From assembly GCA_017533915.1 (NCBI GenBank), contig JAFWHX010000018.1, forward strand, positions 1 to 64,000: DNA of 64,000 nucleotides. Reading direction: 5' to 3'. The DNA comes from Eubacterium sp. (GTDB lineage: Bacteria > Bacillota > Clostridia > Peptostreptococcales > Anaerovoracaceae). The position numbers were made by a program, and so were the translations under genes. The notes under the pieces were generated by a model. The model saw nothing but the letters and a program-made list of their open reading frames with translations. It had not been told where the DNA came from and did no database searches. The number at the start of each line of letters is the position of its first letter. Position 1 is the first letter of the stretch. Shown one piece after another: positions 2,679-57,700 of the stretch.

Positions 2679-5423
2679 TTATGCTTTACTTTTGCCTTTG
2701 ATCTTTACTTTTAACTTGATGGTCTTACTCATAGATGTGTACAGCTTGGACGAGCTGGATGACACGCGCACCTTGACAGTATATGTCTTGCCTGACTTCA
2801 GTCCCTTCTTCACCGTAATGTTACCTTTGGCTGAGACCTTTATTTTCTTGTTGCCATTTAACTTTTTGAATTTCAATTTGCCTTTTGCGTTTTTAACTAC
2901 AAAAGCTTTTGATCGTTTGAATTTCTTTTCCTTGTTTGATTTTGCTGTTAGCTTTTTACCTTTTACTGTCATATCGTTTTCTGGTATGGTCACATCGCTT
3001 AGAGTAATCTCCTTAGCGCCTTCCATATCTTCGAACAGTGCACTGCAGGTCTTGCATTTCCAGTGAGCAATATTCCCCGTACTCTTGTTCGTAGCTTTGA
3101 CTGCCTCAACCATTTCCAAATCGTGTGGTAGTTTTGCTATTATCTCACCTTCGATTAGACTATCACATCTAGAACATTTCTGATCTGCAGTTTTTCCAAC
3201 ATGCTCACATGTTGCTTCTATAGCAGATCCTGCTACTTTCTGATAATCATGGCCAAGAGCTGGGAGTTCTATCGGTTTCGCAATTTCATTTTCTCCAAAC
3301 TTATCCGAAAACAACTTATCACATAGGCTGCAATACCAATAACCTTTTATACCTGATTTTGTACATGTAGCTTTCCCCCCTCTTTTCTCTTCGAGCTTGT
3401 GGATTACTTTATACCATCCCGGATAATTATTGTCATACTCTGATAAGTTTCCTATTTTAGGGCCTTCTATTTGATCTCCAGTTATCGTTTTATATCTAAT
3501 ATACTCATGTCCACCTATACCTATGTCACTGAGGTTACACTTTTCACTCAATCCAATCTCAGTCAATTCTGTACCCTTAAGCATATCTTTCATGTATTGG
3601 ACTTTCTGCATATCAAAGCCGGTCAGGTCTAGTACTTTTAAACTACTGCATTCAGAAAACATTTCATTCATATCAATAACATTAGATGTATTAAATCCAC
3701 TTAAATCTAGTTGTGTTAATTTACTACATCCACTAAACATGTATTCCATGCCGAAAACATTAGATGTATTAAATCCACTTAAATCTAGTTTTGTCAAGCT
3801 ACAACACCTATAAAATGTGGCAAACATGTCTTCTACTTTAGATGTGTCAAATCCAATTATATTTAACTGTGTTAAGCTTTCACATCCGGAAAACGTTTCG
3901 GTCATATCAATAATATTAGATGTATTAAATCCACTCAAATCTAGCTGTGTTAATTTACTACATCCAGTAAACATATAGGCCATGCTGACAACATTAGATG
4001 TATCAAATCCACTTAAATCTAGCTGTTTTAGTTTACTACATCCATTAACTAGCCCAGCCATATGTGTTACTTTAGCCGTGTCAAATCCACTTAAATTCAA
4101 TTGTGTTAAATTCGCACAACTGCCAAACATTGTTTCCATATTTGTTACATTAGATGTATCAAATCCGCTTACATCTAACTGTTTAATACTGCTGCACTCT
4201 AAAAACATACAACTCATATCCGTTACCTTGGATGTATCAAATTCGCTTAAGTCCAATGTCTTTAAATTGATGCAGTAGTCAAACATATGATTCATATTTA
4301 TTACATTAGATGTATTAAATCCGCTTAAGTCAAGCATCTTTAAGCTTATACAGCCATCAAACATATGACTCATATCTGTTACTTTAGATGTGTCTAGTCC
4401 CGCCATGTCAACACTAGTCATATTAGATGCATGATTCAACATGTTTTTCAACGAACCAGATGCATGAACTGTTCCTAATACCTTAAAACGCTTTATATCA
4501 CTCGAACAATCTCCCCACGGGATAGTATCCACTGCGCTATCATTGAATGTATATTCCTTTCCGTCTTCTCCGAGGAATAGCTCTCCTGACCACGTTAAAA
4601 ACCACGGTACTCCTCTATATTCCCCTCTTGCTTTTATAGTGTCATCAGGTTCGACTGTTACAGTTGCAAAAGCGCCAACACAATCTAAGGTAATATCTCC
4701 CCATCCAAAATCCGCTGGTACTGTTCCTTTAGCGGTTATAAAGTACTCCCCTGCCTCATTGAAAGCGACGCTTACATTTCCTTCTTCATCAATATCTGTA
4801 TCAATAGGTGTTAATTCTCCCGTTTCCCTGTTTATTATTTCTATAACTATATCATTAGCCGAACAATCAGTATCATCCCAATTCCTAGCCTGTAATTCTA
4901 TAGTAACAGGTTCCAGTAGAGACGTCGAATAACTTGTTTTGTTGAAATAACAAAATATCAAATCATAAGACTCGTCACTTATTAGTGCGGTAATGGTGTC
5001 TCCATTTTTAATAACAGCATGATTATTCCTTGCATATTCTTTACCTATCACAAAACCATTAAAATAATTCATGCCGTACATTTTTCCGATCATTAAAAAC
5101 CCCCAAGATGGGTCTTGCAACTCTACAGATAAGTAATCAGTAATGCTATCTTCACCATATTTAGCTATATGATCAGCTATGACTGCATCAAAGCAAGACA
5201 CCCCCTCTGGTTCATATGGTATGCTTTCAGGAAAATACGTTTCTGTTAGATCACCTTTTACTACTAATGAATCAGCAATAGATACAAACCCATTTACACC
5301 TACCGCACGGTAGTCCACTGTTACGGTATCCTCTGCTGTCCCTGCAAACGATATTGAGGACATACATATAAAAAGCATAATCAAAGCAGTTGTTAAAATC
5401 GATATCTTTACCAGCTTTTTCAT
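2679..5423 (-). CDS. BspA-like leucine-rich-repeat surface protein
   Basis: The 914-residue protein starts at an ATG preceded by GGGAG and has a signal peptide (KKLVKIS, then a hydrophobic core to about residue 27). Residues of about 27-300 are a beta-rich extracellular part. From about 310 to 630 there are roughly a dozen 23-24-residue repeats of the type TSNVxxMxxMFxxCxxLxxLDLSGF, characteristic of the BspA-like / DUF285 LRR family. Two CxxC modules follow, related to those in the protein at 1-1810. A Lys/Ser-rich tail of about 90 residues ends the protein without an LPXTG motif. Family members bind host proteins or other bacteria; that function is inferred here. It is followed by a good terminator. 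Confidence 0.88.
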   Translation of the reverse strand: MKKLVKISILTTALIMLFICMSSISFAGTAEDTVTVDYRAVGVNGFVSIADSLVVKGDLTETYFPESIPYEPEGVSCFDAVIADHIAKYGEDSITDYLSVELQDPSWGFLMIGKMYGMNYFNGFVIGKEYARNNHAVIKNGDTITALISDESYDLIFCYFNKTSYSTSLLEPVTIELQARNWDDTDCSANDIVIEIINRETGELTPIDTDIDEEGNVSVAFNEAGEYFITAKGTVPADFGWGDITLDCVGAFATVTVEPDDTIKARGEYRGVPWFLTWSGELFLGEDGKEYTFNDSAVDTIPWGDCSSDIKRFKVLGTVHASGSLKNMLNHASNMTSVDMAGLDTSKVTDMSHMFDGCISLKMLDLSGFNTSNVINMNHMFDYCINLKTLDLSEFDTSKVTDMSCMFLECSSIKQLDVSGFDTSNVTNMETMFGSCANLTQLNLSGFDTAKVTHMAGLVNGCSKLKQLDLSGFDTSNVVSMAYMFTGCSKLTQLDLSGFNTSNIIDMTETFSGCESLTQLNIIGFDTSKVEDMFATFYRCCSLTKLDLSGFNTSNVFGMEYMFSGCSKLTQLDLSGFNTSNVIDMNEMFSECSSLKVLDLTGFDMQKVQYMKDMLKGTELTEIGLSEKCNLSDIGIGGHEYIRYKTITGDQIEGPKIGNLSEYDNNYPGWYKVIHKLEEKRGGKATCTKSGIKGYWYCSLCDKLFSDKFGENEIAKPIELPALGHDYQKVAGSAIEATCEHVGKTADQKCSRCDSLIEGEIIAKLPHDLEMVEAVKATNKSTGNIAHWKCKTCSALFEDMEGAKEITLSDVTIPENDMTVKGKKLTAKSNKEKKFKRSKAFVVKNAKGKLKFKKLNGNKKIKVSAKGNITVKKGLKSGKTYTVKVRVSSSSSKLYTSMSKTIKLKVKIKGKSKA

Positions 5424-21040: not shown

Positions 21041-21127
21041 TTTTTGACAATTTGACAATTTGATCATTTGATCTTTTGGTTATTTACTTTTTTGGTTATT
21101 TGATCATTTGGTTATTTGATCATTTGT
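21041..21127. repeat. Low-complexity TTTGATCATTTGGTTA-type tandem tract
   Basis: About nine degenerate copies of an 8-10-base T-rich word (ATTTGATC, ATTTGGTT, ATTTGACA) follow one another. It looks like a slippage-prone minisatellite with no coding signature. Confidence 0.7.
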
Positions 21128-21282
21128 TTATTGCGATTATCTGTATCTTGTCTGAGCTGTCGTTTGGCAGCTCTTTTTTCATCCGCAGACATTTCAGAAT
21201 ACCGATCAAATGCATCGACTCTCCAATGATTACCTAATGAATTTATGCTTAACTCAACACGATGTTTTTTGCCAGATAACCT

Positions 21283-21436
21283 GCAGTTTATTGAGATGTC
21301 TGCTGTATTGCTCTCCCAACCGCAATTTGGGGAGATGTCTTTTATATCGCTCGCACTACCCAGTTTGAGGAGATGTTTGCTGTATAGCTCTTCCAACCGC
21401 AGTTTATCGACGTACTGTCTGCTATGCTCCCATCTG
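21283..21436. repeat. Imperfect 39-bp tandem repeat, four copies
   Basis: Units starting at about 21283, 21322, 21360 and 21399 share the pattern CAGTTT..GAGATGT..GCTGTAT.GCTCTTCCAACC. It runs directly into the 93-bp array. A small minus-strand frame across it (21112-21396) is open because 39 is divisible by three; I do not call it a gene. Confidence 0.7.
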
Positions 21437-21478
21437 TGTTTTGCTCACTTATCGACATAATCTCATTTTCGTGGCTGT

Positions 21479-21920
21479 CCCTGTAGAAAAATGCCTCGGT
21501 ATTGCTCGATTTACTACACTTTTCATCAAATCCTTGCTATTTTTTCTACAGAATCACTTCTTTGAGACCGTTTCTGTAGAAAAATGCATCGGAATTGCTC
21601 GTTTTACTACACTTTTCATCAAAATCTTGCTGTTTTTTCTACAGAATCACTCTTTTGAGGTTGTTTCTGTCTACAGAATGAGAAAAATCGTGCAAAGTGA
21701 TATCATTTTCGTTAGTTTTTTACTTCCTGTAGACGGAATCATGGGTTTTCCTACTGTTTCCGTCTACAGAATGAAGAAAATCTTGCAAAGTGATACCATT
21801 TTCGCTAGTTTTTTGCTTTCTGTAGACGGGATCATAGGTTTTCTGGCCGTTTCTGTCTACAGAACAGGAATAATCATGCAAAATGATATCACTTTTGATG
21901 ATTTTCTGCTTTTCGTAGAC
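21479..21920 (+). repeat. Array 1 of 93-bp hairpin repeats (five units: A A B B B)
   Basis: The unit landmark (CTGTAG, CTGTCT or CCGTCT) occurs at 21481, 21574, 21667, 21760 and 21853, an exact 93-bp period. Units 1-2 (type A) have arms TTCTGTAGAAAAA and TTTTTCTACAGAA around a 49-base loop, for example 21572-21584 with 21634-21646. Units 3-5 (type B) have arms of the form TTCYGTCTACAG and CTGTAGACGGRA around a loop of about 46 bases, with an internal GATATC-centred palindrome in two of them. The last unit has a weaker stem. A plus-strand frame (21441-21938) is open throughout. The same family recurs at 57.0-57.7 kb in the same orientation and A-then-B order. Confidence 0.9.
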
Positions 21921-21984
21921 GAGCAACTGATCATGTAGTATGTCTGACTGCAGAGCAACTGATCATGTGGTATGGCTGACTGCA
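21921..21984. repeat. 32-bp tandem duplication
   Basis: GAGCAACTGATCATGT begins copies at 21921 and 21953, with two mismatches across 32 bases. It follows the hairpin array directly. The remaining 21985-22168 has no gene or clear signal. Confidence 0.8.
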
Positions 21985-22168
21985 GATCACATTCAAACCT
22001 AATGCCAGATAAAGTGTGGGAATTTGAACGTATCGGAAGTACAATAATCCCCACAAATCTCTATTTAACAAGATGAAAAACATTTCGGCAAATCACAGGT
22101 TGACGAAATGTCAGAAGCTCTTGTTTTGTATTAATAACAAAAAATTGAATAATCTCTGAAAACATGGT

Positions 22169-22223: not shown

Positions 22224-22279
22224 AACCGTCCTTTTACGACGCGGTATGTATTGCCAAATCATATGAACAATCAATAAGG

Positions 22280-22322
22280 GGCATTTGCAGACAGAGGCAT
22301 TTGCAGAAAGGGGCATTTGCAG
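22280..22322. repeat. Three 11-bp direct repeats in the gntR leader
   Basis: GGCATTTGCAG occurs at 22280, 22296 and 22312, a 16-bp period. It lies between the operator and the start codon; role unknown. Confidence 0.7.
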
Positions 22323-40051: not shown

Positions 40052-41236
40052 CTATTTATTGAGCTCTGCCTTGAGCTCATCGACCTTATCTGTATGCTCC
40101 CATGGAAGATCCACGTCGGTCCTTCCAAAGTGTCCGTAAGCTGCTGTCTGCCTGTAGATAGGGCGTCTTAAGTCGAGCTTCTCGATGATCGCTGCCGGTC
40201 TGAGATCGAAATGCTTTTTTACGATCTCTGCAAGCTGCTCGTCGTCTACTTTTCCTGTGCCGAAGCTGTCCACCATGATCGATACAGGCCTTGCTACTCC
40301 GATAGCGTAGGCCAGCTGGATCTCACATCTATCGGCGAGCCCAGCCGCGACCAGGTTCTTGGCTACATATCTTGCCGCATATGACGCTGAGCGGTCGACC
40401 TTTGTAGGGTCTTTCCCCGAGAAGCATCCGCCGCCGTGGCGCGCGTATCCGCCGTAAGTATCAACTATGATCTTTCTGCCGGTAAGTCCTGAATCACCCT
40501 TCGGTCCGCCTATAACGAAACGGCCTGTAGGATTCACGAGGATCTTGGTATCGTCATCCATGAGCTCTGCCGGGATGATCGGCTTGATCACGTACTCGAT
40601 CATATCCTTCCTGATCTGCTCCTGTGTTACGTCAGGGTCATGCTGTGTGGAAACGAGTACAGTGTCGACTCGCTTTACTTTATCATCGTCATATTCAACT
40701 GTGACCTGAGTCTTCCCGTCCGGCCTCAGATATGTCAGCGTCTTGTCCTTTCTGACCTCAGCGAGCCTTCTCGCAAGCTTGTGCGCAAGAGAGATCGGCA
40801 TAGGCATGAGCTCAGGCGTCTCGTTGCAGGCATACCCGAACATCATACCCTGGTCTCCGGCTCCGATCGCCTCTTTTTCGTCATCCATCAGGCCTTCTTT
40901 ATGCTCCAGAGCGTCGTCTACTCCCATCGCTATGTCACTCGACTGCTCGTCGATCGCCGTTAGGACGGCGCATGTGCTGCCGTCAAAGCCATACTTGGCT
41001 CTGTCGTATCCGATATCGCAGATCACATTTCTTACTATCGACGGGATATCTATATAGCATTTGGTACTTATCTCGCCCATTACCATGGCATATCCTGTGA
41101 TCGTTGTGGTTTCACAGGCTACCCTTCCGTACGGATCCTCCGTCAGGATCGCGTCCAGGATCGCATCCGAGATCTGGTCGCAGATCTTGTCTGGATGCCC
41201 TTCTGTCACTGATTCAGAAGTAAAAAATTTTTTCAT
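40052..41236 (-). CDS. metK: S-adenosylmethionine synthetase
   Basis: A 394-residue protein with the ATP motif [28 protein letters not shown] and [16 protein letters not shown]. It makes SAM from methionine and ATP. Its leader carries a SAM-I riboswitch with a terminator, so SAM shuts off its own synthesis. AGAGGGGAG precedes the ATG. Confidence 0.98.
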
Positions 41237-41301: not shown

Positions 41302-41320
41302 GACATACTTGGATATCATT

Positions 41321-41489
41321 CCTCATCTTTCAGATAACGGATATCTGTAGGATTTGGCACCTTGCCAGTCATCACCCTACCGCGCACATCACAGGATCGA
41401 CCTGTCCCTGCGCCATCGGCAGACTTTCACGACCTTCACAGGTTGCCGGGCTTCAAAGGGCCTATTCCCTCAGCCACTCTTGATAAGGA
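41321..41489 (-). promoter_or_regulatory. SAM-I (S-box) riboswitch
   Basis: On the minus strand the aptamer begins CTTATCAAGAGTGGCTGAGGG and continues with GGCCCTTTGAAGCCCGGCAACC, the invariant S-box core, then GGTGCCAAATCC and closes with GATGAGG pairing to the first bases (P1). At about 165 nt it is on the long side because of an extended P4-side region. It controls the terminator at 41272-41301. Confidence 0.96.
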
Positions 41490-56999: not shown

Positions 57000-57700
57000 A
57001 GCACGACTAGCCGCCTTAGCATTCCACTTTTGCCGCACTTTTCATCAGATCCTTGCTCATTTTTCTTCAGGATCCTCACTTGCAGGCTGTTTCTGTAGAA
57101 AAATGCTTCGGAATTCTCTGTTTTACTACACTTTTCATCAAAACATTGCCATTTTTTCTACAGAACCTCCTCTTGTTGGCTGTTTCTGTAGAAAAATGCT
57201 TTGGATTTCCCTGTTTTACTACACTTTTCATCAAAACATTGCCATTTTTTCTACAGAATCTCCTCCAGAATGCTGTTTTTGTCTACAGAATGATACAAAT
57301 CATGCAAAATGACATCATTTTCGGTATTTTTCTCGGTTTTGTAGACGGAATCAGGGCTTTTGGGGCTCTTTCTGTCTACAGAATGAATAAAATCGTGTAA
57401 AATGATATCACTTTTGCTAATTTTCTCGGTTTTGTAGACGGAATCAGGGTATTTGGGGCTCTTTCTGTCTACAGAATGACAAAAATCATGCAAAATGATA
57501 TCACTTTCGGTACTTTTCTCGGTTTTGTAGACGGAATCAGGGCTTTTGGGGCTCTTTCTGTCTACAGAATGAATAAAATCATGTAAAACGATATCACTTT
57601 TGCTACTTTTTTAGTTTTTGTAGACAGAACCAGGGCAATTGGGGCTGTTTCTGTAGACAGGATCGGGCCTTTGGCTTTTTCTGCTTTTGGTAGACGGGCG
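57000..57700 (+). repeat. Array 2 of 93-bp hairpin repeats (about eight units)
   Basis: Unit landmarks lie at 57093, 57186, 57279, 57372, 57465, 57558 and 57651, with a decayed unit before them at about 57000: an exact 93-bp period. The first units are type A (57091-57103 pairs with 57153-57165, 13 bp) and the later ones type B (57370-57383 pairs with 57430-57443, 14 bp counting two G-T pairs, 46-base loop). Linkers of about 19 bases separate the hairpins. The last unit is degenerate. The flanking 56892-56999 and 57701-57765 hold no gene. The array runs opposite to its neighbours, in the same window orientation as array 1. Confidence 0.9.

Follow-up and report, generated by a model that had tools for sequence, protein, structure and literature searches.

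The window, a stretch of 64,000 nucleotides from Eubacterium sp., carries two tandem arrays of a palindromic unit, the features of which are collected in Table 1. TRF delineates period-93 tandem arrays at 21481-21670, 21662-21896, 57036-57282 and 57272-57654, confirming for both places the 93-bp period that an earlier sequence-only reading had given for the first array, and the recurrence of the family some 36 kb away, at 57.0-57.7 kb, is borne out by a match of the second array to the first at E = 5e-104. Profile searches place type A units ahead of type B units on the same strand in both arrays, as had been claimed, with the exception of the last B unit of the first array, which scores better inverted. 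The units had also been called hairpins; they are inverted repeats, whose folding in vivo is putative.

The leader of the first array is common to some other arrays of the genome, as is, by eye, its trailer with the 'D'-like repeat. A query made of the U repeats and the half A unit finds matches outside its own locus at C1, C7 and C15, all beside A/B arrays (C numbers denote contigs of the own genome, G000, unless another G genome is named). The D query matched other array loci and not 21922..22120, and outside the query loci it found only places beside A/B arrays. Short tandem repeats flank the first array at 21050-21132 (8/16 bp ATTTGATC) and 22276-22322 (16 bp GGGGCATTTGCAGA), and several further A/B arrays of the genome likewise have short arrays around them. 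Tandem repeats make up 5.6% of the window, compared with 1.1% of seven random stretches of the own genome (140 kb) and 0-1.4% in five congeners. Elsewhere in the window, a SAM riboswitch (RF00162, 81.7 bits) occupies 41320-41489 (-), just upstream of an ORF at 40052-41236 (-), and a 914-aa ORF at 2679-5423 (-) contains internal repeats of 78 bp (26 residues), perhaps representing, at a guess, a leucine-rich-repeat surface protein.

Table 1. Array features in the window, and the 'C' array elsewhere in the genome
Feature	Position	Strand	Details
Leader of first array	21290..21480	+	short 'U' tandem repeats (~39 bp, by eye); half an A unit, degenerate
Two type A units, 93 and 92 bp	21481..21665	+	outer arms GTAGAAAAA...TTTTTCTAC; starts 21481 and 21574 (profile search)
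Two type B units	21666..21851	+	GTCTACAGAA...TGATATCA-like centre...TTCTGTAGAC; starts 21666 and 21759 (profile search)
Last type B unit of first array	21849..21921	-	better score when inverted (profile search)
Trailer of first array	21922..22120	+	GAGCAACTGATCATG...GGCTGACTGCAGATCACA, partly duplicated, then 'D'-like repeat (by eye)
Second array, type A units (two full, one partial)	57022..57279	+	partial A at 57022, full A at 57093 and 57186 (TRF, profile search)
Second array, four type B units	57280..57630	+	starts 57280, 57371, 57464 and 57557 (TRF, profile search)
Second array, degenerate last unit	57640..57700	+	TGTAGAC/GTAGACG arms (by eye)
'C' array	G000 C6:68850-69140; L108:8855-9129; ~8 further loci		near third nuclease-like paralog

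The A/B repeat family across the genome

Profiles built from the window units recover 24 arrays in the fetched loci, comprising 45 A units (partial ones included) and 90 B units, with 16 arrays of mixed A+B composition, one A-only and seven B-only. Many of these arrays share a leader, consisting of a half A unit and short 'U' repeats, or a trailer followed by short 'D' repeats, supporting the earlier view of a dispersed family rather than local slippage. A precedes B in all 16 mixed arrays, with the array at C4:42 kb carrying an additional degenerate A after its Bs. Of the 85 intervals between like neighbour units, 74 measure 93 bp and 11 measure 92 bp. Nine of the 90 B units score better on the opposite strand, a call that rests on score because B is nearly palindromic. 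Two contigs end inside a B array (C9:220570 and C14:186178, the ends of L062 and L063) and these ends read alike, so they are probably one array split by assembly, which would give 23 arrays.

Type A consists of GTAGAAAAA, 23 bp, TACACTTTTC, ~16 bp and TTTTTCTAC, and type B of GTCTACAGAA, a central AAARTGATATCAYTTT-like palindrome and TTCTGTAGAC. Since the spacer letters GGCTGTTTCTGT are, by eye, common to both types, A and B look like two branches of one 93-bp repeat. The palindromes span 66-71 bp within the 93-bp units, with GTAG sitting inside the arms, and their geometry is held closely: the arm-to-arm distance is the same in 89 of 90 B units and in all 39 readable A units (three of 42 not being readable). 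Relative to its length, the B core (66 bp; one change in 90) has far fewer length changes than the 27-bp spacers (11 spacing changes in 85 A+B intervals), with p = 7e-6. Mean column identity of the units is 84%, with differences throughout and the spacer itself repeated. Units resemble one another more within arrays (0.87 for A, 0.86 for B) than between arrays (0.70 and 0.77), indicating that local homogenisation also takes place.

By ORF calls the arrays are intergenic, with neighbours in all orientations, and one neighbour ORF (C15:184 kb) is readable into its array from a start further up. A coding repeat was considered, 93 bp being 31 codons with long open frames; the + frames are mostly open (30/41 A, 70/90 B), and the arrays are nevertheless taken as non-coding because, with pN/pS of 0.76 and 0.92, these frames do not rank lowest among the six. 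The gap between yicC and rqcH measures 1.5 kb here. Of 14 fetched congener loci, from all but two of the congeners, 11 contain both genes, with a gap of roughly 115-365 bp, and the other three are without yicC. The fetched congener loci yielded no paired empty site that would mark the arrays as recent insertions, all of them being too distant to show one. A second palindromic array family, 'C', has a unit of 64 bp (GTTAGTATAA...TTATACTAAC) and 11 BLAST places in the genome, corresponding to ~9 separate loci, and sometimes adjoins A/B arrays (C1:93 kb, C4:42 kb).

Outside this genome, exact-pattern scans of 84,980 species genomes and of viral contigs, which perhaps did not include the own genome, gave no match, and the B pattern is without a match in 16 congeners. 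Besides the own genome, BLAST of the first array in 99 relatives (own included) brought up two matches of 31 bp, in two other genomes. Applied to 296 genomes of the taxonomic family, a sequence model of B reaches E < 1e-22 in the own genome only, the best value elsewhere being 1.7e-4; at E <= 0.01 it marks 36 of the 296 (own included) as borderline matches, two of which were inspected, look like coding sequence and are taken for chance. At the window arrays Rfam gives no match above gathering score, the only Rfam match of the window being the SAM riboswitch. These results agree with the earlier statement that no described element has this unit. A listing-level search of open-licence PMC text returned no account of such arrays or of their pairing with an enzyme of the kind described below, and the phrase '93 bp repeat' occurs there in one paper, on Klebsiella aerogenes.

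Nuclease-like genes beside the arrays

Two arrays of unmixed composition end directly upstream of related genes. The A-only array at C18:61.7 kb ends 72 bp upstream of NucA (C18:62,141), and the B-only array at C9:116.6 kb ends 58 bp upstream of NucB (C9:116,998); the genes were invisible to the sequence-only reading because both lie outside the window. NucB comprises 284 codons and NucA 296, and the two are paralogs with 57% identity. The array beside NucA is the sole A-only one among the 24, and its four units score lowest among full A units, bar one degenerate and one partial unit. Similarly, the array beside NucB holds the four lowest-scoring of the 90 B units (33-43 bits, other full B units scoring at least 48). 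Judged from this sequence linkage, NucA and NucB are the likely owners of the A and B units. The genome encodes seven members of this nuclease-like family, including a third paralog (C6:67.6 kb) with the 64-bp palindromic 'C' array 350-420 bp upstream, while four of the seven are without a palindromic array of at least 60 bp. No homolog was found in the window or in the other fetched array loci (search at E <= 1e-4).

The family protein is ~285 residues long. Of the 296 genomes sampled from the taxonomic family (own included), 175 encode homologs, frequently more than one. All 41 aligned homologs match the C-terminal part of PADLOC PDC-S68 and 26 of them match PADLOC HEAT_CxxC_PD-DEXK (E <= 0.01), identifying the C-terminus, by profile, as a PD-(D/E)XK nuclease-like domain. 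The family gives no significant Pfam, NCBIfam or PDB sequence match, and its best PHROG match (E = 0.001) is to a PHROG of unknown function. In NucA numbering, D217 and E231 are invariant in 41/41 aligned homologs, E182 is E in 40/41 and K248 is present in 37/41. The lysine of the D/E-x-K motif is missing, E231 being followed by H/Y-x-G with no K at +2. A phage or plasmid origin was also considered and set aside: as stated, viral contigs hold no exact-pattern match; NucA has no close relative there and none in plasmids, and three weak domain matches lie in unannotated 'Bacteriophage sp.' records.

Arrays recur beside homologs in other genomes. The three best-scoring homologs outside the own genome, all in genus g11, have arrays of 92 bp (G252), 92 bp (G268) and 94 bp (G226), situated 23-70 bp upstream of the gene start; the fourth and fifth best (G269, G006) have none, and a homolog in the congener G007 has an upstream array of 84 bp. 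The letters of these four arrays are unrelated to A and B; BLAST with the arrays of G226 and G007 found nothing in the own genome or in two other relatives tried for each. Within their genomes both recur, the former with 6.8 units of 94 bp at G226 C1 and 6.7 units of 95 bp at C13, the latter with 3.9 units of 84 bp at G007 C21 and a 39-bp fragment at C30. The fetched flanks of these recurring arrays hold no homolog, so that gene-less recurrence is seen in both such genomes searched. The gene-less 95-bp array of G226 C13 (L200) is surrounded by several short tandem repeat families (756-1982 and 2847-3074), as in the own genome. Tandem arrays of 184-188 bp also occur in congeners, at L115:16001-16493 (G006) and L126:3297-3874 (G012), and are perhaps tandem tRNA genes.

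The frequency of this linkage was compared with that of random ORFs. A palindromic array (period >= 50, inverted repeat >= 7, within 1 kb) accompanies 16 of 122 homologs versus 6 of 420 ORFs in random stretches, with an odds ratio of 10.4 and p = 4e-7, the own 'C' array having been known before the test and being counted in both of its arms; subtracting five own paralogs leaves 14 of 117 (p = 3e-6). The remaining 106 of 122 homologs have no such array according to TRF, which misses arrays of diverged units. The 122 comprise loci returned by the homolog search of the 296 genomes, own and congener paralogs and then further places from that search in listed order, with some at contig edges skipped and duplicates removed; the A- and B-linked genes are left out because the arrays led to them. 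A narrower test, covering 600 bp and any tandem repeat of period >= 30 with controls from the same loci, gives 11/80 homologs versus 9/263 controls upstream (p = 0.0016) and 13/80 versus 22/312 downstream (p = 0.015), a smaller excess than that of the palindromic-array count. In a set of 80 fetched homolog regions, 16 end early at a contig end, repeats being points where draft assemblies break.

The 16 periods are 56, 63 (four), 64, 65, 74, 76, 84 (two), 92 (four) and 94 bp. They fall near whole helical turns: the distance to the nearest multiple of 10.5 bp averages 1.25, a value as low being reached in none of 5000 uniform draws, in a test that treats homologs as independent although related genes do not have independent periods. 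A pitch of 10.2 bp per turn fits better than one of 10.5. Motif copies within the unit lie 28-34 bp apart in several, not all, of the 16 arrays. On a quick tree of 122 rows, 18 with arrays, which has weak supports and a single long-branched row, genes with arrays group together in part (3/500 shuffles as low), 92-94 bp arrays accompany five of six genes of the NucA clade, and the near-63 and near-92 periods are each found in at least three separate places.

Proposed mechanism and rival explanations

Linkage to the genes, private sequences, recurrence in other genera and a fixed geometry are observed features of these arrays. We lean towards the view that the arrays are DNA sites of the ~285-residue PD-(D/E)XK-like family, with a private array beside the gene and gene-less copies scattered elsewhere; binding, cleavage, copying, autoregulation and a benefit to host or repeat are what we infer beyond the observations. 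On this reading, each member that has an array would own a private palindromic tandem array beside its gene, with extra copies having spread in intergenic DNA. NucA would own the A units and NucB the B units, making the window arrays gene-less composites of both and, if each protein recognises its motif, targets for the two sisters. Private letters, a shared geometry and the position upstream of the gene together suggest that the protein reads its own motif on one face of the DNA helix, binding inverted sites about three helical turns apart, and it would probably control its own gene through the upstream array. Gene-less copies bearing the same motif imply copying, for which a break at the array followed by repair is the simplest engine: the protein may nick or cut at the array, with repair then copying units and arrays to new places.

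The phased geometry and the scarcity of core indels (p = 7e-6, given above) would also suit chromosome-architecture or regulatory DNA, where phased palindromes are occupied by the nuclease-like proteins, or by another factor, so as to bend, bridge or segregate DNA or to control neighbouring genes, with no cutting. A/B units are also predicted to be strongly curved, z exceeding 2 in 125 of 131 units compared with 1 of 80 AT-rich stretches of the own genome and 5 of 80 congener stretches, in a wedge-parameter model and on units that share descent. Curvature was discarded as a general answer, because it is not common to the arrays of other homologs (z from -1.8 to 2.7 in the 16 arrays), and in the same model the bend sums best at 94-95 bp, not 93. 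The occurrence of the arrays between genes in every orientation, the retention of catalytic-type residues and the need of gene-less spread for some copying process also argue against an architectural role, which we regard as unlikely. Less probable still is that the arrays act as RNA, with transcribed B units forming long hairpins that serve as regulatory or small RNAs, perhaps as leader RNA upstream of the nuclease genes. In 82 of 90 B units folding favours the + over the - strand, two B units reach z = -4.4 and -5.7 on the + strand, and covariation is slightly above shuffles (31/500 reach it). Yet the covariation is weak and fits palindromic DNA equally well, the central variable pair shows four combinations near independence, the + strand of type A folds better in only 5 of 41 units, and both the B units that score better inverted (9/90) and the lack of an Rfam match at the window arrays speak against it, so that RNA structure was not retained despite the good folding of B.

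The match of all 41 aligned homologs to the nuclease end of the phage-defence candidate PDC-S68, together with the several divergent paralogs in many genomes, would fit anti-phage nucleases that are held or calibrated by the arrays as decoys or self-marks; as the shared domain covers only ~130 residues and the other ~1,100 PDC-S68 positions are absent, such a role in defence appears very improbable. Plain tandem-repeat DNA, arising from slippage and unequal exchange and linked to the genes by coincidence, is the least credible reading: other short tandem repeats do surround many arrays, units are homogenised within arrays and most homologs have no array, but one family occupies 24 loci in a single A-to-B order with a fixed core length, and gene linkage is repeated in several genera.

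Within the reading of the arrays as sites of the nuclease-like family, a wider claim is tentative and may well prove too broad. It would describe a new repeat-enzyme partnership, in which every active paralog of a large multi-paralog PD-(D/E)XK family recognises and copies a private, helically phased array; the letters would change fast between species while the geometry (~6, 7, 8 or 9 turns per unit) stays, and two sister systems here would have fused their arrays into A+B composites.

Comparison with known repeat systems

REPIN-RAYT is the familiar bacterial case in which a domesticated nuclease maintains palindromic repeats scattered through the genome. The arrays resemble REP/REPIN-RAYT ('REPtrons', TnpA_REP) in being palindromic intergenic repeats with gene-less dispersed copies and a copy beside a nuclease gene, the cognate pairing resting on linkage, and, like REP in BIMEs, they occur in inverted pairs and tandem runs. 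The copying proposed here would be analogous to the action of RAYT on REPINs with another enzyme, and the repeat-enzyme logic may, by analogy, be that of REPIN-RAYT with an unrelated enzyme. A search for the Y1 (HUH) transposase of RAYTs (PF01797) gives no match in the own genome, which is 97% complete, and is positive in 5 of 14 control genomes, E. coli included; the partner here has a PD-(D/E)XK-like domain instead. According to PMC8266576, REPs are 20-50 nt palindromes with a tetranucleotide, mostly GTAG, at their head, whereas the present units are 93 bp long, stand in tandem arrays and carry GTAG within their arms rather than at the head of such a palindrome. PMC8049555 describes RAYTs as single-copy, unlike the several paralogs here, three of which each have their own array. 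Since it lacks the enzyme that defines REPIN-RAYT and has repeats of another form, the system is not filed there. If the proposed partnership is true, it would constitute a second, unrelated solution, implying that repeat-nuclease partnerships arise more than once; it would also suggest a function for a family that is widespread in the sampled genomes and lacks a Pfam or NCBIfam match, and provide a DNA-recognition code to read, with paralogs whose candidate binding sites lie beside their genes.

BOX elements of streptococci have the form boxA-boxB(n)-boxC, with ordered modules in variable copy number between shared ends, and are not known to have a partner nuclease. On that general description, the A/B family is similar in being a dispersed modular repeat with ordered modules and variable copies between shared ends, and different in having both of its modules, A and B, in tandem runs. 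Compared with MITEs, which are likewise short gene-less inverted-repeat elements in many copies, the arrays are tandem and of fixed period. The C-terminal nuclease-like domain is shared with the candidate defence proteins PDC-S68 and HEAT_CxxC_PD-DEXK, but the PDC-S68 model has ~1,200 positions against the ~285 residues of the present family, some members of which are array-linked. A regular repeat period and a nearby nuclease gene also recall CRISPR arrays, which differ in having unique spacers between identical repeats, whereas the A/B units vary throughout and their spacer is repeated.
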